From NCBI RefSeq assembly GCF_009299835.1, contig NZ_VKCZ01000019.1:62001-126000 (forward strand): a DNA stretch of 64,000 nucleotides. Direction: 5' to 3'. Both the position numbers and the translations under genes were made by a program. How positions within the stretch are numbered: the first letter of the stretch is position 1; every line of letters starts with the position of its first letter. Under the pieces are notes generated by a model. It was not told the origin of the DNA, searched no databases, and was given only the letters and a program-made list of their open reading frames with translations. Source of the DNA: Microlunatus speluncae. GTDB taxonomy: Bacteria; Actinomycetota; Actinomycetes; Propionibacteriales; Propionibacteriaceae. Of this stretch, positions 43,621-57,041 are shown one piece after another.

Positions 43621-43634
43621 GATTGTCAACAATC
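43621..43634. promoter_or_regulatory. GntR/FCD operator copy 1 (transporter)
   Basis: GATTGTCAACAATC is a near-perfect palindrome 75 bp before the transporter ATG. It matches the copies at 46672 and 54017 and the TNGTNNNACNA-like sites of FCD regulators. Confidence 0.7.
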
Positions 43635-43708
43635 CTACGGCCGCTGGCGCCCGGAGGCGCCGACGACCATGGCTCGGCGCCGCCCGGGCCGGGACGGAGG
43701 AGAGTTCG

Positions 43709-45097
43709 ATGACCGATGCAACAGCCGCAGAATCCAAGCCACCACAGGAGGTGGATGCGAAGACGCTCCGCCGAGCGGTGGGGGCGTCGGCCATCGGCAA
43801 CGCGACAGAGTGGTTCGACTACGGTCTGTACGCCTACGGCACCGCCTACATCACGGCCAATCTGATCCCGGGTGAGAACGTACTCATCACCCTGGGCATC
43901 TTCGCCGTGTCGTTCCTGATCCGGCCGCTGGGCGGTCTGGTCTGGGGGCCGCTGGGCGACAGGCTCGGTCGCAAGCAGGTCCTGGCGATCACCATCCTGA
44001 TGATGTCCGGGGCCACGCTGTGCCTCGGCCTGCTGCCGACCTTCGAGACGATCGGCTACGCGGCACCGTTGCTGCTGATCCTGCTCCGGTTGATCCAGGG
44101 CTTCTCCACCGGCGGCGAGTACGGCGGCGCCGCGACGTTCATGGCCGAGTACGCGCCGGACAAGCGGCGTGGCTTCTTCGGCAGCTTCCTCGAGTTCGGC
44201 ACCCTCGGCGGCTTCTCGCTGGGCGCCCTGTTGATGTTGCTGGCCCAGTTGGTCCTTGGCCAGGAGGCCATGATGGCCTGGGGCTGGCGGATTCCGTTCC
44301 TGGTCGCGGCGCCACTGGGACTGATCGGGCTCTATCTGCGGAGTCGGATGGAGGACACCCCGGTCTTCCAGGAACTGGAGGAGACCGGTCAGAAGGAAAC
44401 CGAGACGAGGACCCAGTTCCGGGACATGTTCCTCGGCTACTGGCGGCCGATCCTGCAGCTGTTCGGGCTGGTGATCGCGCTGAACGTGGTCAACTACACC
44501 TTGATCGCCTACACCCCGACCTACTTGCAGGAGTCGATCGGTCTCGACGAGAACGGTGCGCTGATCGTTCCGATCATCGGCCAGTTGGCGATGATGATCT
44601 TCCTGCCCTTCGCGGGTGCGCTGTCCGACCGCGTCGGTCGCAAGCCGATGTGGTGGGCCTCGCTGATCGGCCTGTTCGTGATGGCCACGCCGATGTACAT
44701 GTTGATGGGCACCAACGCGGTCGGAGCGGTGATCGGCTTTGCCGTCATCGGCCTGCTGTACGTGCCGCAGTTGGCCACCATCTCCGCGACCTTCCCGGCC
44801 ATGTTTCCGACCCACATCCGGTTCGCGGCGTTGGCGATCGCCTACAACGTGGCGACCTCGCTCTTCGGCGGCACGGCTCCGGCGATCAACGAGGCTCTCA
44901 TCGGCGCGACCGGAAACAGCCTGTTCCCGGCGTTCTACATGATGGCCGCCTGTGCCGTCGGCGCCGTGGCCTTGATCTCCGTGATCGAGACGAAGGGAGC
45001 ATCGCTGCGCGGCCGCGGCGTGCCCGGCGTGATCTCCCGGCCGGCGGGCCGCCGACCCGGACCGCGTGGGCCGGTGCCGGAGCCGGACGCGAGCTGA
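43709..45097 (+). CDS. MFS symporter, metabolite:H+ (ProP/MHS-like)
   Basis: The product has 462 residues from ATG 43709 (GGAGGAGAG upstream). Twelve transmembrane segments and MHS motifs: IGNATEWFDYGLYAYGTAYI, VSFLIRPLGGLVWGPLGDRLGRK, GGEYGGAATFMAEYAPDKRRGFFGSFLEFG, YWRPILQLFGLVIALNVV, and GALSDRVGRKPMWW. This subfamily includes ProP (proline, betaine, ectoine) and ketoglutarate permeases. The GntR-type operator in front and the DoeA-like genes downstream make a compatible-solute-like substrate plausible. Confidence 0.88.
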   Translation: MTDATAAESKPPQEVDAKTLRRAVGASAIGNATEWFDYGLYAYGTAYITANLIPGENVLITLGIFAVSFLIRPLGGLVWGPLGDRLGRKQVLAITILMMSGATLCLGLLPTFETIGYAAPLLLILLRLIQGFSTGGEYGGAATFMAEYAPDKRRGFFGSFLEFGTLGGFSLGALLMLLAQLVLGQEAMMAWGWRIPFLVAAPLGLIGLYLRSRMEDTPVFQELEETGQKETETRTQFRDMFLGYWRPILQLFGLVIALNVVNYTLIAYTPTYLQESIGLDENGALIVPIIGQLAMMIFLPFAGALSDRVGRKPMWWASLIGLFVMATPMYMLMGTNAVGAVIGFAVIGLLYVPQLATISATFPAMFPTHIRFAALAIAYNVATSLFGGTAPAINEALIGATGNSLFPAFYMMAACAVGAVALISVIETKGASLRGRGVPGVISRPAGRRPGPRGPVPEPDAS

Positions 45098-45126
45098 TCC
45101 GTTGTTCTGGGAGCCCGTCGAAGCTT

Positions 45127-45315
45127 GTTCGTTCCCTGAGCCTGTCGAAGGGCAAGCCAGCTGGGTGCCCTTCGGTTTTCGGCCTGACGGCCGGAAAGAG
45201 CGCGCCAAGGACGGGCGCGGCGAAATCCTGCCGTCCGGGTCCACTCGGCGGGTGCCCGGGTCCCGCGACCCGAATCCAGACAGGGCTTGCCCTTCGACAG
45301 GCTCAGGGAACGAAC
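45127..45315. repeat. 31-bp perfect inverted repeat
   Basis: Arm 45127-45157 (GTTCGTTCCCTGAGCCTGTC...) and arm 45285-45315 are perfect reverse complements 127 bp apart, with the core CCTTCGACAGGCTCAGG. A partial copy, CAGGGAACGAACG, follows at 45372. The spacer also holds a terminator-like hairpin after TTCGGTTTT (45173-45197). The element is a common type of dispersed repeat in high-GC bacteria. It fills most of the 290-bp gap between the transporter and the aminotransferase. Confidence 0.8.
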
Positions 45316-45387
45316 ACTCCAGCTGGACTGTGCCCGTCCGACACCGCCCGATCCAAGATCATCGGTGGATCCAGGGAACGAACGTGA

Positions 45388-46638
45388 TCACAGCACGGCG
45401 TTCACCGCGTCGGCCCAGATCCCGGCGGCCTCGTCCACCTCGGCCGGGGAGACGACCAGGGCGGGGATGAAGCGGACGACCTGGCCGTAGGCGCCGCAGG
45501 TCAGCAGCAGGAGTCCGCGGCGCGAGGCTTCCTGCTGCGCCGCTGCGGCGGTCGCACCGTCGGGGTTGCCGGCGGCGTCGCGGAACTCGTTTCCGATCAT
45601 CAGGCCCAGGCCGCGGACGTCGGTGATCTGATCATGGTCGGCCGCGACTGCGGTCAGGGCGTCCTTGAGTTGCCGCCCCCGTTCGGCCGAGTTCTGCACC
45701 AGGCCCTCGTCCTCGATCACCTGCAGGGTGGCGCAGGCGGCGGCGCAGGCGACGGCGTTGCCGCCGTAGGTGCCGCCCTGCGATCCGGGCCAGGCCCTCT
45801 CCATCAGCGCGGCCGGCGCCGCCATCGCGGACAGCGGGAAGCCGGAGGCGAGGCCCTTGGCCGTGATCAATACGTCCGGCCGGACGCCGAAATGATCACC
45901 GCCCCAGAACGTCCCGGTACGGCCGAAGCCGGTCTGGATCTCATCGATCATCAGCAGGCAGCCGTGCCGGTCGGCCCGCTCCCTCAGGCCGGCGAAGAAC
46001 CGCTCGTTGCCCGGCACATAGCCGCCCTCGCCGAGCACCGGCTCGACCAGGAAGGCCGCGGTGTCGGCCGGCGCGGACACAGTCTGCAGCAGATAGTCGA
46101 GCTGCCGCAGCGCGAAGTCGGTGCACTCCTCCTCGGACCAGCCGAAGTGGCCGGGATCCGGAAACGGCGCCAGGTGCACGCCGCCCATCAGCGGGGCGAA
46201 GCCGGACCGGAACCGGGTGCCCGAGGTGGTCAGCGACGCCGCGGCCACGGTCCGGCCGTGGAACCCGCCGTGGAAGACGATCACGTTCGGCCGCCCGGTT
46301 GCCTGCCGGGCCAGCCGGATCGCCGACTCGATCGCCTCCGAACCCGAGTTGGCGAAGAAGACCCGGTCCAACCCCGATGGCAGCACGGATCCGAGCCGTT
46401 CGGTCAGCTCGAGCAACGGCCGATTGCGTACGGTCGTGTACTGCGCGTGGATGATCGTCGCGACCTGACGCTGGGCCGCCTCCACCACCACCGGATGACA
46501 GTGGCCGGTGCTGGTGACGCCGATCCCGGCGGTGAAGTCGAGGTAGCGACGATCATCGGCGTCGAAGATCAGGACACCGGAGCCGCGGTCGGCGAGGATC
46601 GGGTTCGCCTGGGTCAGGATCGGGGAGAGCTCGGCCAT
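45388..46638 (-). CDS. Class III aminotransferase (4-aminobutyrate/diaminobutyrate type)
   Basis: The product has 416 residues from ATG 46638. Class III pattern: DFTAGIGVTSTGHCHPVVV, FFANSGSEAIESAIRLAR, FHGGFHGRTVAAASLT, EPVLGEGGYVPG, DEIQTGFGRTGTFWGGDHFGVRPDVLITAKGLASGFPLSAM (PLP lysine about 261), GTYGGNAVACAA. Such enzymes transaminate omega-amino groups (GABA, 2,4-diaminobutyrate, ornithine). In the pathway suggested here it would remove the 4-amino group of diaminobutyrate (DoeD role). The operator at 46672 is 34 bp upstream. Confidence 0.9.
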   Translation of the reverse strand: MAELSPILTQANPILADRGSGVLIFDADDRRYLDFTAGIGVTSTGHCHPVVVEAAQRQVATIIHAQYTTVRNRPLLELTERLGSVLPSGLDRVFFANSGSEAIESAIRLARQATGRPNVIVFHGGFHGRTVAAASLTTSGTRFRSGFAPLMGGVHLAPFPDPGHFGWSEEECTDFALRQLDYLLQTVSAPADTAAFLVEPVLGEGGYVPGNERFFAGLRERADRHGCLLMIDEIQTGFGRTGTFWGGDHFGVRPDVLITAKGLASGFPLSAMAAPAALMERAWPGSQGGTYGGNAVACAAACATLQVIEDEGLVQNSAERGRQLKDALTAVAADHDQITDVRGLGLMIGNEFRDAAGNPDGATAAAAQQEASRRGLLLLTCGAYGQVVRFIPALVVSPAEVDEAAGIWADAVNAVL

Positions 46639-46671
46639 GATCGTCCTCTCGAAGGCTGCGTCGGATAGTAG

Positions 46672-46684
46672 GATTGTTGACAAT
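46672..46684. promoter_or_regulatory. GntR/FCD operator copy 2 (aminotransferase/dehydrogenase)
   Basis: GATTGTTGACAAT, followed by A where the other copies have C. It is in the 103-bp divergent region between the aminotransferase and the aldehyde dehydrogenase, so it could control both. Confidence 0.7.
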
Positions 46685-46741
46685 AATCGAGGGTAACAAG
46701 AGGGCTGTCGGCAGGTCGAGGCCAGCGAGTACCGTGGCCCC

Positions 46742-48226
46742 ATGAGCGCGACGCAGACCCCGCAGTCCACCCGTCCGGCCGTCGTCGACGCGGTGCCGAA
46801 ACAGCTCTTCGTCGGCGGCGCCTGGGGGCCCGCGGCGGAGGGGCGGACCTTCGAGGTGCTCAACCCGGCGACCGGCGAGGTCCTCGCCGAGGTGGCCGAC
46901 GCCAGCCCGGCCGACGGCCGGCGGGCGCTGGACGCCGCGGCCGCCGCCCAGCCCGCGATGGCGGCCCTGTCGCCACGGCAGCGGGCCGACATCCTGACCC
47001 GGGCGTTCGACCTGCTGCACGAGCGAATCGACGACCTGGCGCTGCTGATGACCTCGGAGATGGGTAAGCCGCTGGCCGAGGCCCGGGGCGAGATCGTCTA
47101 TGCGGCCGAGTTCTTCCGCCATTTCGCCGGCGAGGCGGTCCGGATCGACGGCGGCTACCAGACCTCACCCGCCGGCGACGCCCGGTTCTTGATCACCAAG
47201 CAGCCGGTCGGCGTCACGTTGTTGATCACACCGTGGAATTTCCCGATGGCGATGGGCACCCGCAAGCTCGGCCCGGCGATCGCCGCCGGCTGTGCCAGTG
47301 TGATCAAGCCGGCGCCGCAGACCCCGCTGTCGATGCTGGCCTTGATCGACATCCTGCGCGAGGCCGGGATGCCCGACGGCGGCGTCAATCTGATCACCTG
47401 CACCGACGCCGCCGCCGTCCTGGAGCCCATGATCAGATCCGGGCTGGCCCGCAAGCTGTCCTTCACCGGCTCGACCAAGGTCGGCCGGATCCTGCTCGAG
47501 CAATGCGCCGAGAAGGTGCTGCGGACGTCGATGGAGCTCGGCGGCAACGCGCCGTTCGTGGTCTTCGACGACGCCGACCTGGACGAGGCGGTGGCCGGCG
47601 CGATGCAGGCCAAGATGCGCAACATGGGCGAGGCCTGCACCGCCGCGAACCGGATCTACGTCCAGGCCGGGGTGATCGAGGAGTTCGGCCGCCGGCTGGC
47701 GGCGAAGATGGCCGAGCTCCGGGTCGGCCCCGGCACCGACGACGGCGTCCAGGTGGGCCCGCTGATCGACCAGGCCGCGCTGACCAAGGTTTCCGAGCTG
47801 GTCCGGGATGCCCTCGATCGCGGCGCGTCGGTGCTCACCGGCGGCGAGCCGATCGACGGCCCCGGCTACTTCTTCCGGCCGACCGTGCTGTCCGGGGTGC
47901 CGCGGGAGGCCAAGATGAGCTCGGAGGAGATCTTCGGGCCGGTGGCGCCGCTGACCCCGTTCGGCGACGAGGAGGAGGCGGTCGCGCTGGCCAACGACAC
48001 CGAGTTCGGCCTGGTGTCGTACGTCTTCACCAACGATCTGCGGCGGGCGCTGCGGATGGCGGAGCGGATCGAGTCCGGCATGGTCGGGCTCAACCAAGGC
48101 ATCGTGTCCAACCCGGCCGCGCCGTTCGGCGGAGTCAAGCAGTCCGGGCTCGGCCGCGAGGGCGGCGCGATCGGCATCGACGAGTTCCTGGAGACCAAAT
48201 ACATCGGCATCGCGATGCCGAGTTGA
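46742..48226 (+). CDS. NAD(P)-dependent succinate-semialdehyde-type dehydrogenase
   Basis: The product has 494 residues from ATG 46742. ALDH marks: PWNFPMAMGTRKLGPAIAAGCASVIKPA (cofactor loop), SFTGSTKVGR, MELGGNAPF (general base Glu), and catalytic Cys299 in NMGEACTAANR; EEIFGPVAPL and QSGLGREGG follow. It oxidises a semialdehyde to the acid. In an ectoine-type route the substrate would be aspartate semialdehyde (DoeC role). A SAT/GabD role is equally likely from sequence alone. Confidence 0.9.
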   Translation: MSATQTPQSTRPAVVDAVPKQLFVGGAWGPAAEGRTFEVLNPATGEVLAEVADASPADGRRALDAAAAAQPAMAALSPRQRADILTRAFDLLHERIDDLALLMTSEMGKPLAEARGEIVYAAEFFRHFAGEAVRIDGGYQTSPAGDARFLITKQPVGVTLLITPWNFPMAMGTRKLGPAIAAGCASVIKPAPQTPLSMLALIDILREAGMPDGGVNLITCTDAAAVLEPMIRSGLARKLSFTGSTKVGRILLEQCAEKVLRTSMELGGNAPFVVFDDADLDEAVAGAMQAKMRNMGEACTAANRIYVQAGVIEEFGRRLAAKMAELRVGPGTDDGVQVGPLIDQAALTKVSELVRDALDRGASVLTGGEPIDGPGYFFRPTVLSGVPREAKMSSEEIFGPVAPLTPFGDEEEAVALANDTEFGLVSYVFTNDLRRALRMAERIESGMVGLNQGIVSNPAAPFGGVKQSGLGREGGAIGIDEFLETKYIGIAMPS

Positions 48227-48229
48227 TCA

Positions 48230-48826
48230 TCACTCGGCCGGGGCAGACAGGACGCTCCGGGCGAGGCTCTGCAGTGCGGCGACCCGTTGCTCGGCGGTGA
48301 TTCCCTGATCGATCAGGTGCTGCTGAAGTTCGCCGGCCAGCGGCGCGAGCAGAACGTCGGCCAGGGCATCACCCGGGTCGGCAGCGCCGGCATCGCGCAG
48401 CAGCACCTGCAGATGCAAGCGCCAGAAGGCATACGCTCCGGTACGAAAGCGCGCGGCCCCGGTCTCCGCGGCCAGCGCCAGCTGCAGATGCCGGTCGAGC
48501 AACTCGACCATCGCCGCGTAGAACGCCGCCAGCCGCTCGGCCGCCGGCGCCCCCGGCCCGAGCGGCGGCGGCCCCGAGATCATCCGCTCCTGCAGCCGCC
48601 GTTCGTGCTCGTCCAGCATCGCGACCGCGAGCGCCGCCCGGTTGGGATAGCGCCGATACAACGTCCCCTTGCCGACCCCGGCGGCCCGGGCCACGTCCTC
48701 CATGCTGACGTCGGTCGCACCGCGTTCGGCGAACAGCCGCTCGGCGGCCGCCAGCACCTTCGCGCGGTTGCGCTGGGCGTCCGCCCGCTCCGGCCGGTCG
48801 GCCGGATCCGCCGTCGGTAGCGTCAC
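48230..48826 (-). CDS. TetR-family regulator
   Basis: The product has 198 residues from ATG 48826. N-terminal HTH: NRAKVLAAAERLFAERGATDVSMEDVARAAGVGKGTLYRRYPNRAALAVAML. C-terminal helical ligand domain typical of the TetR group with AFYAAMVELLDRHL and LLAPLAGELQQHLID. It is divergent from the NTF2-like gene and has a palindromic site in the shared promoter region, so it probably controls that gene and itself. It interrupts the catabolic regulon. Confidence 0.85.
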   Translation of the reverse strand: MTLPTADPADRPERADAQRNRAKVLAAAERLFAERGATDVSMEDVARAAGVGKGTLYRRYPNRAALAVAMLDEHERRLQERMISGPPPLGPGAPAAERLAAFYAAMVELLDRHLQLALAAETGAARFRTGAYAFWRLHLQVLLRDAGAADPGDALADVLLAPLAGELQQHLIDQGITAEQRVAALQSLARSVLSAPAE

Positions 48827-48844
48827 GCCGCGAGACTACCAACT

Positions 48845-48900
48845 GGACGCGCGTCCGTTTCGCTTGTACTCTCGAAATCGAAGAAGCGGACTCCAGTCCG
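48845..48900. promoter_or_regulatory. Probable TetR operator pair
   Basis: GGACGCGCGTCC (48845-48856) is a perfect palindrome, and CGGACTCCAGTCCG (48887-48900) is a second. Each is followed by TTTCGC (GTCCGTTTCGC occurs twice). They lie 20-75 bp upstream of the divergent TetR and NTF2-like starts. Confidence 0.65.
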
Positions 48901-48925
48901 TTTCGCTGGTCCGGAAAGGATGATC

Positions 48926-49357
48926 ATGGGCGCACCGTCTCCCGAACTCGTCGACGAATGGCTCGGCCGCGCGTTCAATACCGGCGATGTCGAGGCCGCC
49001 GCGGCCCTGTATCACCCGGAGGCGCGGGTGGTCCGGCTGGACCGGGTGCACGGCGACGACGCGGTGGCCAAGGGGGCCGCGGGGATCAGGGAGGTGATGG
49101 CCGGCTACATCGGGCTGAACCCCCGGATGGACGTCGTGGTGCACCACGTCACCCGGGCCGGTGACTTCGCGCTGGTGCGCTCCCAGTGGTTGATCACCGG
49201 TACGAAGTCGGACGGCGAACCGCTCGAACTGCACCACCACGGGATGGAGGTGATGCGCCGGCTGCCGGACGACAGTTGGGTCTTCTACATCGATCATCCG
49301 TACGGTGCCGACTCGTCCTGGGCCGTCGACCGGCCCGCGCCCGCGCCCGCAAACTAG
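48926..49357 (+). CDS. NTF2-like (YybH/DUF4440-type) protein
   Basis: The product has about 143 residues from ATG 48926 (AAAGG six bases upstream; ATG 48920 also possible). NTF2 pattern: LVDEWLGRAFNTGDVEAAAALYHPEARVVRLD, GAAGIREVMAGYIGLNP, DFALVRSQWLITG. Its end overlaps the stop of the convergent GntR gene by 4 bp. Function unknown; regulated by the neighbouring TetR gene. Confidence 0.75.
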   Translation: MGAPSPELVDEWLGRAFNTGDVEAAAALYHPEARVVRLDRVHGDDAVAKGAAGIREVMAGYIGLNPRMDVVVHHVTRAGDFALVRSQWLITGTKSDGEPLELHHHGMEVMRRLPDDSWVFYIDHPYGADSSWAVDRPAPAPAN

Positions 49358-50040
49358 GGCTTGTTGGCCACCGGCGGGACGACCTGGGCCAGCCGGCCGA
49401 CGGCGTCGGCCATGTGCGCGATCAGCAGCCGGTCGAACCGTTTCTGATCACCCTCCCGCATCGCCTCGGCCAGCGCCTTGTGCTCCGGCACCCGCTCGTC
49501 CGGCGGGGGATAGCTGCCGCCGAGCGCGTTGATGCAGAGCTTGGTCTCGGTCATCAGGGTGCGGTGGATCCGAGACAGCCGCGGGCTCTTCGCCTGCGCC
49601 ACCAGGCACTCGTGGAACTTGACGTCCCACTGACCCATCGCGACGACATCGTTGCGCTTGCCGGCCCGCTCCATGTCCCGCCAGACCTTGATCAACCGCT
49701 CACCGGCGCGCTCCGGGTTCCCGGAGCGGAAGATCTCCTGGGCCGCCGACCGTTCGATCGCCTCCCGGGCCAGGTAGATGTCCCGGACGTCGGCCTCGGT
49801 CAGCTCGACGACGAACAGGCCGCGGTTCTTGATCGAGACCAGCAGACCTTCCTGGGTGAGCCGTTGCATGCCCTCCCGGAGCGGCCCGCGACTGACGCCG
49901 AACTCCCGCGCGAGCTCGACCTCGTGCAATTGTTCACCGGCGGCGAAGTGCCCGCTGTGGATCGCCGAGCGGAGCCGGTCGGCGATGATGCTCGCGGTCG
50001 ACACGGCCGAGAGCGGCTCGATCAGGCGGCGTTCGGGCAT
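49354..50040 (-). CDS. GntR-family repressor, FCD subfamily
   Basis: The product has 228 residues from ATG 50040. HTH: ADRLRSAIHSGHFAAGEQLHEVELAREFGVSRGPLREGMQRLTQEGLLV. FCD domain with the metal/ligand pattern DVRDIYLAREAIERSAA, DVKFHECLVAQAKSPRLSRIH, EHKALAEAMREGDQKRFDRLLIAHM. It is the last gene of the minus-strand hydrolase operon and the only GntR gene in the window. Three operator-like palindromes stand in front of the transporter, the aminotransferase and its own operon, so it is their likely repressor. Confidence 0.88.
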   Translation of the reverse strand: MPERRLIEPLSAVSTASIIADRLRSAIHSGHFAAGEQLHEVELAREFGVSRGPLREGMQRLTQEGLLVSIKNRGLFVVELTEADVRDIYLAREAIERSAAQEIFRSGNPERAGERLIKVWRDMERAGKRNDVVAMGQWDVKFHECLVAQAKSPRLSRIHRTLMTETKLCINALGGSYPPPDERVPEHKALAEAMREGDQKRFDRLLIAHMADAVGRLAQVVPPVANKP

Positions 50041-50049
50041 GGCTCCGCC

Positions 50050-50784
50050 TCACCGATCGGGGCCGGCGAACAACCGGCCGAGACCGGGCCAGTCGAGCGT
50101 TCCGCCGGCGATCCGCAGGCCCTGCCAGACGGTCACCTGGTTGGCGGTCAGCACCGGCTTGCCCAGCGCGTCCTCGAGATCATCCAGCCAGAGCAGGGAA
50201 TGCATCGCCGTGTCCGGCACCAGCACGGCCTCCGCCTCCGGATGATCATGATCGACGGCGAGCTTGATCACGTCCTCCCGGCCCAGCGTGCCGACTTCGG
50301 CCGCGGTCATGATGTCCCGGCTGCCCCAGTGCACCACCTCGATCTCGCCGACACCGAGGAAGTCGACGAACCGGGCCGCCACGTCCGCCGGGTACGAGGC
50401 CGCCACGGCGACCCGGCGCAGCCCGAGCGAGCGGGCCGCCTCGACGAACGCGATCGAGGTGGAGGAGGCCGGTTTCCCTTGTGCGGCGGCGATCTGCTCG
50501 ACCTGCTGCCGGGCGCCGTCCCAGCCGAAGACGAAACTGCCCGAGGTGCAGGCCCACATGATCGAATCCGGCTCACTCGCGGCCAATCGCTGCGCGCCCT
50601 CGGCCAGCCGGGCGTCGCTGCCGAGATCGAGCAGGGCGTCCACCCGGTGCGCGTCCTCGCCCACGCTGGTGTGCACCAGGGGCAGCCGAAGTCGTCCCTC
50701 CAGCCGCTCGGCCAGGGCCGGGAAGTCGTCCTCGGCGCTGAACCCCGGATACAGCAGGCCGACCGTCACCGGTGCGTTCGTCAT
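50050..50784 (-). CDS. Asp/Glu-racemase-fold protein, EutA-like, second Cys replaced
   Basis: The product has 244 residues. It belongs with maleate isomerase, arylmalonate decarboxylase and EutA. The first catalytic Cys is present (Cys79 in WACTSGSFVFG). At the second site, where its paralogue at 53234 has SCT (Cys207), this protein has PDT (Asp191). It thus retains only one of the two Cys, the opposite of arylmalonate decarboxylase. It should bind a substrate with a carboxylate next to a chiral centre. Same operon as the M20 and DoeA-like genes. Confidence 0.75.
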   Translation of the reverse strand: MTNAPVTVGLLYPGFSAEDDFPALAERLEGRLRLPLVHTSVGEDAHRVDALLDLGSDARLAEGAQRLAASEPDSIMWACTSGSFVFGWDGARQQVEQIAAAQGKPASSTSIAFVEAARSLGLRRVAVAASYPADVAARFVDFLGVGEIEVVHWGSRDIMTAAEVGTLGREDVIKLAVDHDHPEAEAVLVPDTAMHSLLWLDDLEDALGKPVLTANQVTVWQGLRIAGGTLDWPGLGRLFAGPDR

Positions 50785-50802
50785 CAGCTACCCCTCCACC
50801 TG

Positions 50803-52023
50803 TCAGGCCGGCGCTTTGTCGTCCAGCGTGCCGATCAGTCGCAGCGCCGCCAGGGCGTACGTCCTCGCCGCGGTGACCAGGTCGGCCACCGGGACCGACT
50901 CGTTCGGCCGGTGTGCGTGCTCGTTCACCGAACCCGGCCCGAGCACGACCACCGGCACCCCGGCGTCGCGGGCGATGAAGCCGCCGTCGCAGGCGGCGGT
51001 CCAGCCACCGAGGCCCCAGCGCGGTCCGCTGGCGTCGGACAGCGCCGCCTCCACCGCCTGGACCAACGGATGATCGGGCGGAGTCTCGAAGCCGGGCATG
51101 TCCATCGTCATCCGGGCCCGGACCGACAGCCCGCGCGCCGCCAGCCCAAGATCATCGAGCCGGCGCCGGATGTCGTCCAGCACCGCACTGGCGGATTCGC
51201 CGGGTAACAGCCGCCGGTCCGCGACCACGGTGCACTCGCCGGCCACCACGGTCGGGCCGGTGCCGCCGGTGATCGTGCCGATGCTCCAGGTCGCCGGCCC
51301 GGCCAGCAGGTGGGCGCTGGTCGCCAGCTCGCTCTGCCAGGACTCGATCGCGGTGATCACGGCCGCGGCGCCGGAGATCGCATTCGCCCCATCGGAAGGG
51401 TTTCCGGCGTGCGCCGGCCGGCCGGTGATCACGAACTCGACGTAGGAATCGCCGCGGGTGGCGATGATCGTCTGCAGCTCGGTCGGCTCGGCGACGATGC
51501 AGCCGGCGAACGGGCCGATCGGGCCGCCGAGGTAGTGCCGGATGCCGAGTCCGTGGTCCTCCTCGTCGACGACCGCGGCGAGTTCGACCGGCCCGGCCAA
51601 CCGGACCCGGGCCTGCCGGATCGCCGCCATCGCGGTCAGGCAGGCGGCCAGCCCGCCCTTCATGTCCGTGGAACCGCGGCCGTACAGCCGGCCGCCCGAG
51701 ATCTGCCCGCTCCACGGGTCGCCGGTCCAGCCGTCGCCCAGTGGGACCACGTCGGTATGGCCGAGGAACAGCAGGCCGGGCTCGGTGCCGCCGGGCAGCC
51801 GGACCGAGACATTGGATCGATCTTGGGCGACCTCGCTGGTGATCACCTCGAGGTCGAGGCCGGACGCGAGATCGGACAGCACGGCGACGGTCGGCGCCTC
51901 GCCACCGGGCGGATTGACATTCGGTACGTGCCGGGCCGGTGCCCGCACCAGCGCCACGGCGAGCCGGGTCACCAGACCCTCGTCGATCTGGTCCAGCACC
52001 GCTTGTTCGGTCGTGGAAAGCAC
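50803..52023 (-). CDS. M20 peptidase/deacylase, ArgE/DapE-type
   Basis: The product has 406 residues. Zinc ligands: FLGHTDVVPLG (His, Asp), RGSTDMKGG (Asp), DEEDHG (catalytic and bridging Glu), EPTE, and EHAHRPNES (C-terminal His). Lid-domain RGDSYVEFVITGRPAHAGNPSDG is present. These enzymes hydrolyse N-acyl amino acids. In an ectoine-type pathway this could deacetylate N-acetyl-2,4-diaminobutyrate, replacing the usual DoeB. Coupled to neighbours by short gaps. Confidence 0.88.
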   Translation of the reverse strand: MLSTTEQAVLDQIDEGLVTRLAVALVRAPARHVPNVNPPGGEAPTVAVLSDLASGLDLEVITSEVAQDRSNVSVRLPGGTEPGLLFLGHTDVVPLGDGWTGDPWSGQISGGRLYGRGSTDMKGGLAACLTAMAAIRQARVRLAGPVELAAVVDEEDHGLGIRHYLGGPIGPFAGCIVAEPTELQTIIATRGDSYVEFVITGRPAHAGNPSDGANAISGAAAVITAIESWQSELATSAHLLAGPATWSIGTITGGTGPTVVAGECTVVADRRLLPGESASAVLDDIRRRLDDLGLAARGLSVRARMTMDMPGFETPPDHPLVQAVEAALSDASGPRWGLGGWTAACDGGFIARDAGVPVVVLGPGSVNEHAHRPNESVPVADLVTAARTYALAALRLIGTLDDKAPA

Positions 52024-52037
52024 CGTGGGGTTGATGG

Positions 52038-53237
52038 CTATCTCCTCACCTCCAGGTCACGGGGCAACCTGCAGAGCGGCTCGGCACCGCCAGCGGAGAT
52101 GATCACCGGCTCGGACAACTCGTACCCCCAGCCGTCCATCCACAGCCCCAGAATCACGTGCAAGGCCATGCCGGCGGTGAAGGTCCGAGTCTCCTCGGCT
52201 CGGAGGCTGATCGTCCGCTCGCCCCAGTCGGGAGGATAGCCGACGCCGATGGAATAGCCGATCCTCGATTCCTTGGTCAGACCGCGGGCGTTGATGATCC
52301 GGCTGAACGCGGAATGTGCCTCTCGGATGGCGGTGCCGGGGGTCATCGCGGCCAGTGCGCCGGCCATCCCGTCCTTGATCACCGCGGCTGCTTCGGCGAG
52401 TCGCGGCGGCGGGTCGCCGAGCATGACGGTCCGGGCCAGCGGCGCGTGGTAGCGCTGATAGGCCCCGGCCAGCTCGATCGTCGTCGCCTCGCCGGTCCGG
52501 AACGGCCGTTCGGACCAGGTGAGATGCGGGGTGCCGGCGTTCACCCCGGTGGGCAGCAGCGGCACGATGGCCGGGAAGTCGCCGCCGTGATCATCGGTGC
52601 CGGCGGCCTGGGCGGCGAGGATCTCGGCCGCGACGTCGCACTGGCGCCGGCCGGGGACGACCGCCTCGAGCGCTACCCGCATCGCCTGCTCGGCCAGCCG
52701 GCCGGCGACCCGCAGCCGCTCCTGCTCGGCGGCGGACTTGATCAGCCGGACCCAGTTGACCAGCGCCTCGCTGTCCACCAGCCGAGCTCGGCCGACTCGG
52801 GCACAGAGCGACTGGTAGGCGCGCACCGAGAAGAAGTGCGCGTCGCCCTCGACGGCGATGATCGACTCCGGCCCGTCCGGCAGCAGCCCCAGCTCGCGGG
52901 CCCGGTCGGCGATCCAGTCGAACGGATGGACGTCGATCCGGTGCACCAGGGCCTCCGGATAGCCCTCGATCCGGTCCGCCGGCAGCCGGGCCGTGGCCGT
53001 GGCGCCGTTCGCGTCCATCGCCCGCAGGAACAGCCGCGGCTCACCCACGGCCGGAACGATCAGGCACTGCGGCATGTAGAACGACCAGGCGTCGTAGCCG
53101 GTCAGATAAAACAGGTTGGCCGGATCGGCGACGACCAACGCCGACCATGATCGCGGCACCATCGCCTGCTGCACCCGGAGCACCCGGTCGGCGTACTCCT
53201 CCTCGGTGACGGGTTTGATCATGCCCGGACCGATCAC
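52038..53237 (-). CDS. M24-family ectoine hydrolase-like protein (DoeA/EutD)
   Basis: The product is about 399 residues. I take GTG 53237, which overlaps the EutA-like stop (GTGA); ATG 53222 is an alternative. It matches my memory of DoeA in several long stretches: NLFYLTGYDAWSFYMPQC, RAMDANGAT, VHRIDVHPFDWIA, GGDFPAIVPLLPTGVN, TPHLTWSERPFRTGE, YQRYHAPLARTVMLG, GYPPDWGERTISL. DoeA opens the ectoine ring to N-acetyl-diaminobutyrate. The usual M24 metal ligands are not all present, as in DoeA/creatinase relatives. The name is a homology inference. Confidence 0.78.
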   Translation of the reverse strand: MIGPGMIKPVTEEEYADRVLRVQQAMVPRSWSALVVADPANLFYLTGYDAWSFYMPQCLIVPAVGEPRLFLRAMDANGATATARLPADRIEGYPEALVHRIDVHPFDWIADRARELGLLPDGPESIIAVEGDAHFFSVRAYQSLCARVGRARLVDSEALVNWVRLIKSAAEQERLRVAGRLAEQAMRVALEAVVPGRRQCDVAAEILAAQAAGTDDHGGDFPAIVPLLPTGVNAGTPHLTWSERPFRTGEATTIELAGAYQRYHAPLARTVMLGDPPPRLAEAAAVIKDGMAGALAAMTPGTAIREAHSAFSRIINARGLTKESRIGYSIGVGYPPDWGERTISLRAEETRTFTAGMALHVILGLWMDGWGYELSEPVIISAGGAEPLCRLPRDLEVRR

Positions 53238-54007
53238 GATTGTCCGGCCAGCGTCTGCCCGGGGCCGATCAACTGGCGCCCGGTCAGCCGCAGCGCGGCC
53301 CAGACCGTCGCCTGGTTGGCCGAGATCACCGGGATGCCGAGATCGACCTCGAGCGGGGCGATCAGGTCGTAGCTGCTCAGGTTGGTGCAGGAGATCAACA
53401 CCGCCTCGGCGCCGGACCGCGGAATGCCCATGATCATCCGCGCCGTGGTCCGGTACGGGACCTGCCAGATCTTGCCCTTCAGGCCGAGGAATCCCTGCCC
53501 GGACACGGAAACCCCGGCCTCGTCGAGGAAGGCGACCAGCCGCTCCGTGACCGCGGCGTCGTACGGGGTCGCCACGCACACACTGCTCACGCCGAGGGCG
53601 GCCAGGGCGGCGAGCAAGGCCCCCGAGGTGGTGATCGCCGGGGCGCCGCCGGCCAGCTCCATCGCCACCGCCAGCTCCCGCTCGCCCGCCAGGCCGTGGA
53701 CGAAGCTGCCCGAGGTGCAGGCGTACGCGTAACCGACCGGCTCGATCACCTTGAGGTCGGTGACGCACTGGCTGATCTGATCAAGGTCGGCCAGCACCTC
53801 GGACTGCTTCAGGCTGACCGGCACCGCGGCGTGCGGCGTCCGGGTGCAATGCAGGCTGACATCGTTCGGCAGCCAGCGGCTCAGCTCGTCGTCCAGGGCC
53901 ATGTCAAAGGGGGCCACGACCCCGATCCGGACCCGGTCCGCAGGGCCGGTCAGGCGGTCGACCGCGCGGGTCCGGGGCGCCGACCTCATCATGGGAGCAT
54001 CATGCAT
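53234..54007 (-). CDS. Asp/Glu-racemase-fold protein, EutA-like, both Cys present
   Basis: The product has 257 residues. Both catalytic cysteines are in place: Cys97 in YACTSGSFV and Cys207 in LISCTNLSSYD, and VISANQATVWAALRL is a characteristic C-terminal motif of the family. EutA is a required protein of hydroxyectoine/ectoine use in some proteobacteria. This gene is first in the minus operon (54007-49354), whose promoter region carries operator copy 3. A start at ATG 53989 is also possible. Confidence 0.78.
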   Translation of the reverse strand: MHDAPMMRSAPRTRAVDRLTGPADRVRIGVVAPFDMALDDELSRWLPNDVSLHCTRTPHAAVPVSLKQSEVLADLDQISQCVTDLKVIEPVGYAYACTSGSFVHGLAGERELAVAMELAGGAPAITTSGALLAALAALGVSSVCVATPYDAAVTERLVAFLDEAGVSVSGQGFLGLKGKIWQVPYRTTARMIMGIPRSGAEAVLISCTNLSSYDLIAPLEVDLGIPVISANQATVWAALRLTGRQLIGPGQTLAGQS

Positions 54008-54016
54008 CCCGGATCA

Positions 54017-54049
54017 GATTGTTGACAATCCTGTCGCCGGATTTCTAAT
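54017..54049 (+). promoter_or_regulatory. Divergent promoter with GntR operator copy 3
   Basis: GATTGTTGACAATC (54017-54030) is a near-perfect palindrome. It contains a consensus -35, TTGACA (54022-54027), which is 16 bp before TCTAAT (54044-54049). The predicted start is at about 54056-54059, and the dehydrogenase GTG is at 54059, so that transcript is likely leaderless. Binding would directly cover the -35 box. It is also 9 bp from the divergent EutA-like start. Confidence 0.8.
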
Positions 54050-54058
54050 CTCGCCGTT

Positions 54059-55042
54059 GTGAGCCCCGCCCGGACCGAGACCGTCATGACGGTGCTCTGC
54101 GGGCCGGACGGGGTTCGGCCACGTGGCCTGGAGCGCGTCGCCGAACGGGCCGAGCTCCGCTACGTCGACGCCGCCGGGCTGACCGACGGGCTGGCCGGAG
54201 CTCGCGCGCTCTTCCTCTGGGACTTCTTCTCCACCGCGGTCGCCGACACCTGGCCGGCCGCCGCGGAGCTGGACTGGATCCACGTCGCCGCGGCCGGGGT
54301 GGACTCGCTGCTCTTCGACGGTCTGGTCCGGTCGCCGATCACCGTCACCAACGCCCGCGGCACCTTCGACCGGCCGATCGCCGAGTTCGTCCTGACCTCG
54401 ATCCTTGATCACCTCAAGGGTGTGCATCTGACCCGGTACCAGCAGCGCGAGCAGCACTGGCGGCATCGGGAGACCCTGCTGGCCGAGGGGCGGACGGTGT
54501 TGATCATCGGCACCGGTCCGATCGGCCGGGCCACCGCCCGGCTGCTGCGGGCCGTCGGGTTCGAGGTCCGCGGCGTCGGCCGCGTCGCCCGGGAAGCCGA
54601 TCCGGACTTCGGCACCGTCGGGTCCAGTGCGACCCTGGTCGACCAGATCGGCTGGGCCGATCACGTGGTCGCCGTGGCCCCGCTCACCCCGCAGACCTGG
54701 CACCTGCTCGGACCGGACGTCTTCGCCGCGATGAAGCCGACGGCGCAGGTGATCAACGTCGGCCGCGGCCCGCTGATCGACCAGCAGGCCCTGCTCGCGG
54801 CGCTGACCGGGGGCCGGATCGCCGCCGCCGCGCTCGACGTGTTCGCCACCGAGCCGCTGCCCGCCGATCATCCGCTGTGGAACGCTCCCGGCGTGGTCGT
54901 GTCACCGCATCTGTCCGGCGACGTCGTCGGTTGGCGGGACACGCTGGGCCGCCAATTCGCCGACAACGCCCTGCGGTGGTTGGACGGGCGGCCGTTGTTC
55001 AATGTCGTCGACAAACGTCGCGGCTACGTGACAGTTTCATGA
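54059..55042 (+). CDS. D-isomer-specific 2-hydroxyacid dehydrogenase
   Basis: The product has 327 residues from GTG 54059. NAD-binding motif VLIIGTGPIGRATARLLRAVGFEVRGVGR, catalytic Arg in INVGRGPLID, Glu in FATEPLPADHPLW and His in VVSPHLSG. It reduces or oxidises a 2-keto/2-hydroxy acid. It is divergently transcribed from the hydrolase operon, shares the operator with it, and its place in a cyclic-amidine pathway is not obvious. Downstream an amidase gene follows after 39 bp. Confidence 0.88.
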   Translation: MSPARTETVMTVLCGPDGVRPRGLERVAERAELRYVDAAGLTDGLAGARALFLWDFFSTAVADTWPAAAELDWIHVAAAGVDSLLFDGLVRSPITVTNARGTFDRPIAEFVLTSILDHLKGVHLTRYQQREQHWRHRETLLAEGRTVLIIGTGPIGRATARLLRAVGFEVRGVGRVAREADPDFGTVGSSATLVDQIGWADHVVAVAPLTPQTWHLLGPDVFAAMKPTAQVINVGRGPLIDQQALLAALTGGRIAAAALDVFATEPLPADHPLWNAPGVVVSPHLSGDVVGWRDTLGRQFADNALRWLDGRPLFNVVDKRRGYVTVS

Positions 55043-55081
55043 TCAGCTAGGGAGCTTCATGATCAAGAAGGCGTGCCGGCG

Positions 55082-56509
55082 ATGACCGACCTGTCGATGC
55101 TCAGCGCGACCGAGCTGGTCGCCGGCTACCGTTCCGGGGACTTCACCCCGGTGGACGCGACCCTGGCCGCGCTGGCCGCGATCGAGGCCCACGACCGGGC
55201 GGTCAACGCCTTCGTCCTGGTCGATCCGGAGCGGGCGCTGACCGCGGCCGAGTGGTCGGCCCGGCGCTACGCCGCCGGCGCCCCGACCGGGCCGGGCGAC
55301 GGCGTCCCGACTTCGATCAAGGACATGTTCCTGACCGAGGACTGGCCCACCCGCCGGGGGAGTGCGCTGATCCCGGCCGACGGTCCGTGGCTGGACAGCG
55401 CGCCGCCGGTGGCCCGGCTGCGGGAGGCCGGTGCCGTACTGCTGGGCAAGACGACGACCCCCGAGTTCGGCTGGAAGGGCGTGACCGACTCGCGCGCCTT
55501 CGGCGCGACCGGCAACCCGTGGGATCCGGCCCTGACCGCCGGCGGATCGAGCGGCGGTTCGGCCGCCGCGGTCTGCCTCGGCATGGGCGCCTGGTCGATC
55601 GGCACCGACGGCGGCGGCTCGGTCCGGATCCCGGCATCGTTCACCGGCACCGTCGCGCTGAAGCCGACCTACGGCCTGGTACCGATCTATCCGCCGAGCC
55701 CGTTCGGCACGCTCTCCCACGCCGGCCCGATGACCCGCACCGTGACCGATGCCGCGATCATGCTCGACCTGCTGGCCCGGCCCGACCCGCGGGACTGGTC
55801 GGCCCTGCCGACCCCGGCCGCCTCGTTCCTTGATCAACTCGAGCACGGGGTCGACGGCCTGCGGATCGGGTTCTCGCCCGATCTCGGCTTCGTCCGCAAC
55901 GATCCGGAGGTCGACCGTTGCGTCCGGGCCGCGGTCGACGTGCTGGCCGGGGCCGGGGCCCGGGTGGAGGAGGTCGAGCTCGGCCTGGAGGATCCGGTCG
56001 ACGCGTTCTCGGTGCTCTGGTTCGCCGGCGCGGCCAAGGTGCTGGAGGCGTACGGGCCGGGGATCGAGGACCGGATCGATCCCGGGCTGCGCCGCGGCGC
56101 CGAGTACGGCCGCACCCTGTCCGCCTCGGACTATCTGGACGCGACCGCGGTCCGGATGCGGCTCGGCACGCTGATGGGGGAGCTGCACGAGTCCTACGAC
56201 GTGCTGGTCACGCCGACGATGCCGCTCGCCGCCTTCCCGCTGGGCCGGGACGCCCCGCCGGACTGGCCGTCGGACGACTGGACCAGCTGGACCTCGTACA
56301 CCTATCCGTTCAACCTGACCCAGCAGCCGGCCCTGAGCGTGCCCTGCGGCTTCACCGAGGACGGCCGCCCGATCGGCCTGCAGTTCGTCGGGGCGCGCCA
56401 CGCCGACGGCCTGGTGCTCCGCGCCGGCCGCGGCTACGAGCGGGCCACGGACTGGGCCACCCGGCGACCGGCGCTGCTCTCCCGGGACCGTCCGGCCGAA
56501 GCCACCTGA
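55082..56509 (+). CDS. Amidase (amidase signature family)
   Basis: The product has 475 residues from ATG 55082 (AAGAAGG upstream; GTG 55073 also possible). Ser-cisSer-Lys triad: Lys in VPTSIKDMFL, Ser in GGSSGGSAAAVCLG and nucleophile Ser in GTDGGGSVRIPAS. These enzymes hydrolyse carboxamides or half-amides. Position after the dehydrogenase and before DUF3830 indicates membership of the regulon. It could open or clip an amide intermediate of the pathway. Confidence 0.9.
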   Translation: MTDLSMLSATELVAGYRSGDFTPVDATLAALAAIEAHDRAVNAFVLVDPERALTAAEWSARRYAAGAPTGPGDGVPTSIKDMFLTEDWPTRRGSALIPADGPWLDSAPPVARLREAGAVLLGKTTTPEFGWKGVTDSRAFGATGNPWDPALTAGGSSGGSAAAVCLGMGAWSIGTDGGGSVRIPASFTGTVALKPTYGLVPIYPPSPFGTLSHAGPMTRTVTDAAIMLDLLARPDPRDWSALPTPAASFLDQLEHGVDGLRIGFSPDLGFVRNDPEVDRCVRAAVDVLAGAGARVEEVELGLEDPVDAFSVLWFAGAAKVLEAYGPGIEDRIDPGLRRGAEYGRTLSASDYLDATAVRMRLGTLMGELHESYDVLVTPTMPLAAFPLGRDAPPDWPSDDWTSWTSYTYPFNLTQQPALSVPCGFTEDGRPIGLQFVGARHADGLVLRAGRGYERATDWATRRPALLSRDRPAEAT

Positions 56510-56543
56510 CCCGGCGTTCTTGATCACCTGCGAAAGGATCTCC

Positions 56544-57041
56544 ATGACCCGCTACATCACTGTCACCCTCGAGGCCCGCGGAGTGACCTGCCGGGCCCGG
56601 CTGCTGGACGACGAGGCCCCCCGAACCGCCGCCGCGGTCTGGGACGCACTGCCGCTGTCCGGGCCGGTGCACCACGGAAAATACGCCCGGAACGAGATCT
56701 ACAATCTCGTCCCGGCCTTCGCGAAAACCGAACCAGGCAAGGAGAACACGACGGTCACCCCGATCCCCGGTGACCTCTGCTACTTCGCCTTCGATGCTGA
56801 TGATCTTGGTAATCCGGCCTACGGCTACGAGTCCGACTCCGGCCCGGGCGAGCTGTCCAAGATCATCGACCTGGCCGTCTTCTACGGCCGGAACAACCTG
56901 TTGATCAACGGCGACCAGGGCTGGGTCCCGGGCAACGTCTTCGGCACCATCGAGGAAGGCCTGCCGGAGCTGGCCGCCGCCTGCCAGGACGTCTGGATGG
57001 GCGGCGCCCGCGGCGAAACCCTGACCTTCGCCCGCGCCTAG
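56544..57041 (+). CDS. DUF3830 protein
   Basis: The product has 165 residues from ATG 56544 (AAAGGA upstream). DUF3830 has a cyclophilin-like fold and commonly lies next to racemase, amidase or hydantoin-type catabolic genes. Here: RYITVTLEARGVTCRARLLDDEAPRTAAAVWDALPLSGPVHHGKYARNEIY, PIPGDLCYFAFDADD, LAVFYGRNNLLINGDQGWVPGNVFGTIEEG. It is 34 bp after the amidase, presumably the last gene of that operon. Function unknown. Confidence 0.85.
   Translation: MTRYITVTLEARGVTCRARLLDDEAPRTAAAVWDALPLSGPVHHGKYARNEIYNLVPAFAKTEPGKENTTVTPIPGDLCYFAFDADDLGNPAYGYESDSGPGELSKIIDLAVFYGRNNLLINGDQGWVPGNVFGTIEEGLPELAAACQDVWMGGARGETLTFARA

Follow-up and report, generated by a model that had tools for sequence, protein, structure and literature searches.

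Ectoines are widespread bacterial osmolytes. The canonical proteobacterial cluster for their use contains an importer (EhuABCD or UehABC), EutABC, DoeA (EutD), DoeB (EutE), Ssd, Atf and the regulator EnuR. Ectoine breakdown has been shown in Proteobacteria and, according to a survey published in 2026, not earlier in Gram-positive bacteria (PMC13188858). The same survey by Boas Lichty et al. places eutD of Bacillota beside abgB, which encodes an amidohydrolase, with no eutE, and, on the basis of homology only, claims clusters for Actinomycetes as well (PMC13188858). Here we analyze a gene cluster of Microlunatus speluncae, located in a stretch of 64,000 nucleotides from contig NZ_VKCZ01000019.1 (contig C15 in our scans; the whole stretch is called the window below), and conclude, with a probability of about 0.7, that it represents a regulon repressed by an FCD-type GntR regulator for the import and catabolism of ectoine and/or 5-hydroxyectoine, a type of regulon that many Actinobacteria have.

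The window resembles the canonical cluster in a DoeA-like M24 hydrolase, an EutA-like protein, enzymes of the succinate-semialdehyde dehydrogenase and aminotransferase types and a regulator of the GntR superfamily, and Ehu importers are present in the window's relatives. However, it has no DoeB, EutB or EutC above cut-off and carries an M20 deacylase instead, its regulator is an FCD-type GntR protein and not a MocR-type EnuR, and it adds two Amdase paralogues, an amidase, a DUF3830 protein and a D-2-hydroxyacid dehydrogenase. The Gram-positive and archaeal clusters of the 2026 survey resemble it in that EutD of Bacillota stands with abgB and without eutE, whereas eutB/eutC, PucR, thrA and adh are described there for Bacilli; that an amidohydrolase may take over from DoeB is thus partly in print already (PMC13188858). 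Priestia megaterium, too, has M24, M20 and ProP side by side. The words "amidase" and "hydroxyacid" are absent from the main text of that survey, whose Fig. 7 may show clusters of the window's type, and a literature search combining ectoine utilization, actinobacteria and GntR turned up a MocR study and a review only. The features of the cluster, with genes assigned by open reading frame calls and family searches, are as follows (GABA, gamma-aminobutyric acid).

43621..43634, operator 1: GATTGTCAACAATC, 5' of the symporter gene
43709..45097, plus strand: MHS-family (ProP-like) symporter, likely importer (PRK10642, 401 bits, below the cut-off of 544)
45388..46638, minus strand: AT3, class III (GABA/diaminobutyrate-type) aminotransferase (family searches; query span 45388-46644)
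46672..46685, operator 2: GATTGTTGACAATA, in the AT3/SSADH divergent promoter; last base differs
46742..48226, plus strand: SSADH, succinate-semialdehyde-type dehydrogenase (TIGR01780, 564 bits, below the cut-off of 646)
49354..50040, minus strand: gntR, GntR helix-turn-helix and FCD domain (family search), last in the AMD2-M24-M20-AMD1-gntR run
50050..50784, minus strand: AMD1, EutA-like Amdase-family protein (PF17645), second catalytic Cys replaced by Asp
50803..52023, minus strand: M20, ArgE/DapE-type deacylase, proposed deacetylase instead of DoeB (TIGR01910, 224.7 bits, cut-off 217.6)
52038..53237, minus strand: M24, DoeA-like hydrolase, proposed (hydroxy)ectoine ring opener (family and PDB searches, tree, residues)
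53234..54007, minus strand: AMD2, EutA-like Amdase-family protein (PF17645), both catalytic Cys present
54017..54030, operator 3: GATTGTTGACAATC, in the AMD2/HADH divergent promoter
54059..55042, plus strand: HADH, D-2-hydroxyacid dehydrogenase (family searches)
55073..56509, plus strand: amidase-signature amidase, PRK06169 equivalog (708.2 bits, cut-off 506; GGSSGG at residues 157-162)
56520..57041, plus strand: DUF3830 protein with a cyclophilin-like fold and ~72% identity to 3kop, a structure of no known function; start 56544 suggested by relatives

An earlier note on this DNA, made from the letters alone, had named these genes correctly in kind and had placed the three palindromes at the positions where they were found here. 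The core ATTGTYRACAAT has exactly three exact sites in the 6.79-Mb assembly (6,787,844 bases in 21 contigs; completeness 97.4%, contamination 7.8%), all at the three promoters of this cluster, and a reversed control pattern gave no exact match in the whole assembly. When up to three mismatches were allowed, seven matches were found in the window against a shuffle mean of 1.36, and none of 100 shuffles reached seven; the palindrome is counted once per strand, and the seven matches stand for the three true sites and one three-mismatch match at 15510. The 12-bp core ATTGTNNACAAT gave five matches when two mismatches were tolerated, a number reached by 13 of 100 shuffles and therefore unremarkable; what matters is the three exact core matches and not the count of near-matches. 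Operator 3 overlaps TTGACA (54022-54027), and TCTAAT (54044-54049) follows 16 bp further on the plus strand, both hexamers being read by eye; a consensus promoter scan, which demands an A absent from TCTAAT, lists only a minus-strand pair there. An operator over such a putative -35 box is the arrangement expected for a repressor site. The minus-strand run from AMD2 to gntR (54007 down to 49354) has gene ends that are close or overlapping, and the plus-strand run of HADH, amidase and DUF3830 spans 54059-57041, with the amidase and DUF3830 genes adjacent.

A scan of genome contigs with the M24 protein gave 55 loci. Presence and absence in relatives were judged by tblastn, for which we chose the limits of identity and coverage, weaker relatives being counted absent, and not on the crude gene caller, which gave some frames wrong names. 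The operator was present at the divergent HADH promoter in all 33 testable loci (31 exact, two with one mismatch) and at the promoter between SSADH and AT3 in all 17 tested (16 exact). It stood upstream of AMD1 in 16 of 20 gntR-bearing loci (15 exact); in the window and its nearest relative (L004, Microlunatus parietis DSM 22083, with the same gene set) no separate AMD1 promoter is expected because only a few bases separate M20 from AMD1. Upstream of the symporter, which is 90% identical in L004 by tblastn, the operator was seen in three of five gntR-bearing loci (two exact, one with one mismatch) and in one of 14 loci that lack gntR within range. Altogether, the 24 gntR-bearing loci contain 77 exact sites, many of them from Kribbella loci, where base composition would predict 0.017. 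Exact sites were also found in 10 of 31 loci without gntR in the fetched range, some of which are short contigs and others Kribbella, and 11 Agrococcus loci, in which M24, M20 and the symporter were the only genes seen, had no operator even with one mismatch. In G002 the genes lie in two groups with ~75 kb between them and operators at both, the first containing HADH, M24, an aminotransferase, M20, DUF3830 and AT3, and the second SSADH, amidase, symporter, gntR, AMD1, AMD2 and Ehu genes, which is natural evidence for a regulon predicted to act in trans.

The numbers of exact sites in 16 related genomes ranged from 1 to 34, with 1-6 in eleven and 14-34 in five; in G723 (L034) the sole exact site lies outside the fetched stretch and the site at the divergent promoter has one mismatch. 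An operator common genome-wide was rejected for the genome of the window, where the scan found only the three promoters named before, and for the eleven relatives with 1-6 sites; chance palindromes are ruled out by the genome count and the cross-species conservation. A short palindromic operator at the target promoters, linked to the regulator gene, is what characterizes an FCD-type GntR regulon, and the single regulon proposed earlier appears to hold, the operator being confined in the genome to these promoters and recurring at the same promoters in relatives; this conclusion rests on comparative sequence. In Kribbella (L010, L011, L013, L014, L016, L022 and L024-L026), extra copies were observed, some of them inside genes, and seven loci have a copy, exact or with one mismatch, inside the M24 gene at locus position ~10831-10876. 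The excess in Kribbella could reflect an enlarged regulon or internal road-block operators. Two exact operators of Mycobacterium sp. AZCC_0083 (the genome of L030; G718, contig C3) lie off-cluster (L148, 6765 and 16822), 150-310 bases before two other GntR-like genes.

Several lines of evidence connect the M24 protein to DoeA. Its best PDB match is the ectoine hydrolase DoeA (6twj/6twk, E ~4e-100), it is 41-44% identical to annotated plasmid DoeA proteins, and 11 of its residues (W51, S52, Y54, D75, H104, P229, K322, D337, E340, T342 and E373) occupy DoeA-specific positions, identical in 5/5 canonical DoeA rows and 49/49 actinobacterial rows; the 11 outgroup rows have none of these residues apart from T342 in a single row. 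Y54 and E255 of the window protein align with Tyr52 and Glu255 of Ruegeria pomeroyi DoeA/EutD, which we take to be active-site residues. At the same time, many positions fixed in the five canonical rows are changed in all 49 actinobacterial rows (e.g., W44Y, G50A and H56P), and the score against the DoeA model TIGR02993 is 393.6 bits, below the cut-off of 613. In a tree of 78 rows, taken from 92 orthologue rows and the window (L001-L003, L007, L058, L059 and most of L071-L088 were left out), the actinobacterial proteins form their own clade of 55 rows (support 97/97) within a 67-row DoeA-like group (85/90). As to its position relative to the DoeA clade, a point raised in the earlier note, M24 falls outside the canonical DoeA clade and probably belongs with the wider DoeA-like group and not with DoeA_2-like or PepQ-like proteins. 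As observations apart, the M24 query matches 28 Klebsiella plasmid records, and Klebsiella pneumoniae plasmid NZ_CP031815.1 (L092, IncFIB) carries annotated EhuABCD, an EutB-like pyridoxal phosphate enzyme, EutC, DoeA and DoeB.

The absence of the usual partners, already pointed out in the earlier note, extends to the whole genome, in which no protein reached the cut-offs of DoeB/EutE (best 198.2 bits vs. 402.7, on contig C17 and without an exact operator), EutB (281.6 vs. 413.35, not on C15) or EutC (59.5 vs. 471.65, not on C15). The M20 gene was in range in 29 of 33 loci with M24 and HADH, and in Priestia the M24 gene occurs with M20, EutB, a cyclodeaminase and ProP; this association argues for the suggested role of M20 instead of DoeB.

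Importers in relatives are the strongest evidence on the substrate. The NCBIfam Ehu models were run on five importer proteins from three loci, one with M24 (L037) and two without it (L121 and L122), and these linked importers score above the ectoine/hydroxyectoine cut-offs (EhuB 262.7 and 259.1 bits, cut-off 190.9; EhuA 369.6, cut-off 345.4; EhuD 260.5, cut-off 205.2; EhuC 223.0, cut-off 196.95). A tblastn search with the Ehu set of Sinorhizobium meliloti detected all four genes in L006, L012, L035 and L037, which have M24, and in L121, L122, L125, L126 and, more weakly, L134, which have the amidase and DUF3830 genes without M24. The closest solved structure to the binding protein of L121 is 2q88 (E 7e-47; next 4e-24), a structure of EhuB (PMC13342039). 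Other loci with the amidase and DUF3830 genes have a BCCT transporter (L129, PF02028) or a symporter like that of the window (L120; L123, 65%; L128, 47%). The substrate family is supported by association, and, together with the DoeA-specific residues of M24, these importers favor the ectoine-type substrate suggested before; ectoine or hydroxyectoine is most likely, and a close analogue may be used. Because ectoine/hydroxyectoine themselves are indicated by the linked importers, there is no need to invoke the cyclic amidine, imide or N-acyl diamino acid that had also been envisaged.

Analysis of gene distribution suggested that the cluster consists of two parts. DUF3830, amidase, AMD2 and AMD1 occurred together in 19 of the 55 loci, and all but AMD1 were in range in seven more, so that 26 have both amidase and DUF3830. 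No member of this set was found in 25 loci (including the 5.8-kb contig L007 and distant relatives), and the remaining four rows had AMD1 and/or AMD2 only (L020, L021 and L035 start at or near a contig end, and L058 is a fragment match). None of the 55 loci had DUF3830 without the amidase or the amidase without DUF3830. M24 and HADH without the amidase were seen in L017, L023, L032, L033 and L055 (plus L020 and L035); in the genomes of these first five loci no DUF3830 was found, and the amidases detected there all scored below the NF004815 cut-off. That cut-off was passed in one of 15 genomes tested, G002, which also carries DUF3830. EutB-like genes stand beside HADH in two of the five loci lacking the amidase (L032 and L055) and also in L009, which has it, and the idea that such a gene replaces the amidase and DUF3830 set was dropped. 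An extra class I/II aminotransferase (PF00155) is present in 31 of 33 loci with M24 and HADH and absent from the window and L004.

The reverse situation was also observed. DUF3830 was found in 37 of 346 Actinomycetota genomes searched, and 14 of 20 surroundings fetched have amidase, AMD1 and AMD2 (13 of these also HADH), frames having been checked for intactness in part of the 14. No protein of 15 DUF3830-bearing genomes, 14 of which come from those loci, was above the DoeA cut-off: 14 genomes gave 86 bits or less, or no score, compared to 393.6 for the window M24, and the fifteenth (G483) has a DoeA_2-like protein (173 bits) inside the cluster. The 14 loci without DoeA-like M24 have an exact operator in nine of 10 cases with gntR and in none of four without it, and in one of them (L120) AT3 and SSADH are each 78% identical to those of the window. 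In L119, DUF3830 is paired locally with M24/M20 and the amidase lies elsewhere. Comparison of these genomes shows amidase, DUF3830, AMD1 and AMD2 to be a co-inherited, separable module, here called module B, found also without the M24/M20 route (route A); where it lacks a DoeA-like M24, it has the same operator or neighboring Ehu importers. The pathway end appears common to both modules only in part. One single pathway, as the earlier note had inferred, was rejected because the two modules separate across genomes, and the part of that proposal that puts M20 in DoeB's place was retained. A plasmid location of the cluster was rejected as well, as a tblastn search of 72,556 plasmid records at E 1e-5 gave no match to DUF3830. 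A distant DUF3830 subfamily (~80-115 bits; L135-L138, other Actinomycetota) showed neither module B genes nor the operator in the fetched stretch.

The proteins of module B offer some hints to its chemistry. AMD1 and AMD2 are 30% identical, both match PF17645 and solved arylmalonate decarboxylases (AMDases), and in a tree AMD1, AMD2 and EutA (two rows) form three separate groups; against the EutA model TIGR02990 they score 95.0 and 82.5 bits and do not reach the cut-off of 318. Among orthologues with an intact frame and 75% coverage (identity above 50% for AMD1 and 40% for AMD2; own-genome copies L003 and L059 excluded), AMD2 has both superfamily cysteines in 43/43, as in the racemase type of this arylmalonate decarboxylase/maleate isomerase/EutA superfamily, whereas in AMD1 the second site is Asp in 34/34 and the first is Cys (30/34) or Ser (4/34). 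Wild-type AMDase has Gly74 at the first site and Cys188 at the second, the second Cys protonating the intermediate (PMC4996985), and the AMD1 pair matches neither this nor the two-Cys pattern. The amidase passes the cut-off of NF004815 (PRK06169) and has the amidase-signature motif GGSSGG.

DUF3830 was named in no paper found by literature search, and the title of its close relative 3kop, from Arthrobacter sp. FB24, gives no more than the cyclophilin-like fold. A sequence profile search returned only 3kop and a weak 2nnz. An AlphaFold model built from 27 sequences reached moderate confidence (predicted local distance difference test [pLDDT] 67.9, predicted template modeling score [pTM] 0.70; an earlier model with pLDDT 59 was too weak) and agrees with 3kop, which is possibly in the AlphaFold training data (template modeling [TM] score by query 0.77-0.82). 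The next matches were KslB (E 2e-7; TM at most 0.62 by query and 0.41 by target) and McbB (3x27, E 3e-5), whose products we take to be of the beta-carboline type, followed by 2nnz (a hypothetical protein) and ordinary cyclophilins. In the model, DUF3830 has a fold core in common with KslB and McbB, whose chains are at least 100 residues longer, so that its closest enzymes of known function by predicted fold are Pictet-Spenglerases, which suggests imine or cyclic-amine chemistry.

HADH had been considered foreign to the known route, and this proved not to be so. A hydroxyacid dehydrogenase gene of undefined role is listed in ectoine clusters in a review figure legend (PMC5924519), and a D-2-hydroxyacid dehydrogenase is near M24 in a haloarchaeal cluster that also contains an amidohydrolase, an FAD/iron-sulfur protein, GdhB, threonine ammonia-lyase, a class III aminotransferase and a BCCT transporter.

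Based on these results, a tentative scheme can be drawn. GntR would bind the operators, repress the three promoters and let go when an ectoine-derived pathway intermediate accumulates. In route A, the symporter would import the solute, the DoeA-like M24 would open the tetrahydropyrimidine ring to yield N-acetyl-(hydroxy)diaminobutyrate, M20 would remove acetate in the place of DoeB, and transamination by AT3 and oxidation by SSADH would lead to (hydroxy)aspartate; this order is borrowed from the known chemistry of DoeA, DoeB, Atf and Ssd (PMC8739950, PMC5924519). Module B might take a second ectoine-family compound, either hydroxyectoine or an N-acetyl isomer that M20 refuses, and do the job of EutA, EutB and EutC elsewhere; the two-Cys AMD2 would then be an epimerase, and the amidase would hydrolyze an amide. 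What exactly EutA, EutB and EutC do is described as unknown (PMC8739950).

Some observations weigh against this interpretation. Five of the 16 related genomes, all of Kribbella (G711, G713, G715, G716 and G717), hold 14-34 exact operators; M24 is under the DoeA cut-off and the branch joining it to canonical DoeA has a support of only 85/90; and the importer evidence comes from relatives, the window itself having an MHS symporter and no Ehu. AT3 in the 14 loci without DoeA-like M24 is at least 59% identical in five, about 30% in four and not seen in range in five, and the EutB-like genes, which would favor module B as a replacement of EutB, occur in just two of five loci with route A alone. The hydroxyectoine role of module B would follow from analogy with EutABC, and the presence of module B without M24 implies that ring opening by M24 is dispensable, which a simple ectoine route leaves unexplained. 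In a rival reading, which we consider less likely, module B would be a complete DoeA-independent route for ectoine or hydroxyectoine, with ring opening of the cyclic amidine by DUF3830, removal of the acetyl group by the amidase and handling of side products by HADH, AMD1 and AMD2, and the window organism would have parallel M24+M20 and DUF3830+amidase routes. Module B beside Ehu importers in genomes without DoeA-like M24, its company of window-like AT3 and SSADH in L120, the adjacency of amidase and DUF3830 in the window and the predicted likeness of DUF3830 to imine- and ring-forming enzymes would fit; however, the model is of moderate confidence, the TM score to KslB is ~0.6 by query length and below 0.42 by target, fold likeness gives no reaction, and L119 keeps DUF3830 with M24/M20 and the amidase elsewhere. 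A bolder version, speculative and rather unlikely, would have module B and HADH form an M24-independent route of the ectoine family, DUF3830 opening or rearranging a cyclic amidine by a Pictet-Spenglerase-like fold working in the hydrolytic direction, AMD1 with Asp for Cys representing a catalytic type new to the Asp/Glu-racemase superfamily, and the window organism having both routes under one repressor.

The best scores of AT3 and SSADH are with GABA/ornithine-type aminotransferases and succinate-semialdehyde dehydrogenases, and this resemblance makes a GABA-yielding substrate conceivable. A compound releasing GABA or a beta-amino acid (a cyclic amide, a hydantoin-like compound or an N-acyl amine), with a changed specificity of M24, would also agree with the score of M24 and its many altered canonical positions, but appears improbable to us, as Ehu importers above the ectoine cut-offs are present in both kinds of relatives and a canonical ectoine cluster, too, has annotated succinate-semialdehyde dehydrogenase and aminotransferase-family genes. 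That two unrelated pathways with no common substrate came to share a promoter region and a repressor by chance or operon drift is very hard to believe: the two modules do occur apart, but in many loci the same operator stands before HADH, AT3/SSADH, AMD1 and the symporter, it is present at both places of G002, and Ehu importers lie beside either module.

Additional genes were observed in and around the cluster. Between SSADH and gntR the window has a TetR-type gene (48230-48826) and a SnoaL-like gene (48920-49357), unmentioned in the earlier note; neither of the two has its own exact operator, and tblastn gave no counterpart for them in L004. A long FAD-linked oxidase (PF01565; PF02913 in L008) is found in many related clusters (e.g., L010 12509-16135, L008 12632-15865 and L147 4264-7188) and forms a family of 16 loci; it is also present in the haloarchaeal cluster and the second locus of G002, with no match in L004.

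An ectoine or hydroxyectoine regulon under FCD-type GntR control would provide a precise and testable gene set for Actinobacteria such as Kribbella, Microlunatus, Ornithinimicrobium and others. DUF3830 gains a likely context from it, and a comparison of the two enzyme modules could reveal the EutA-type step.

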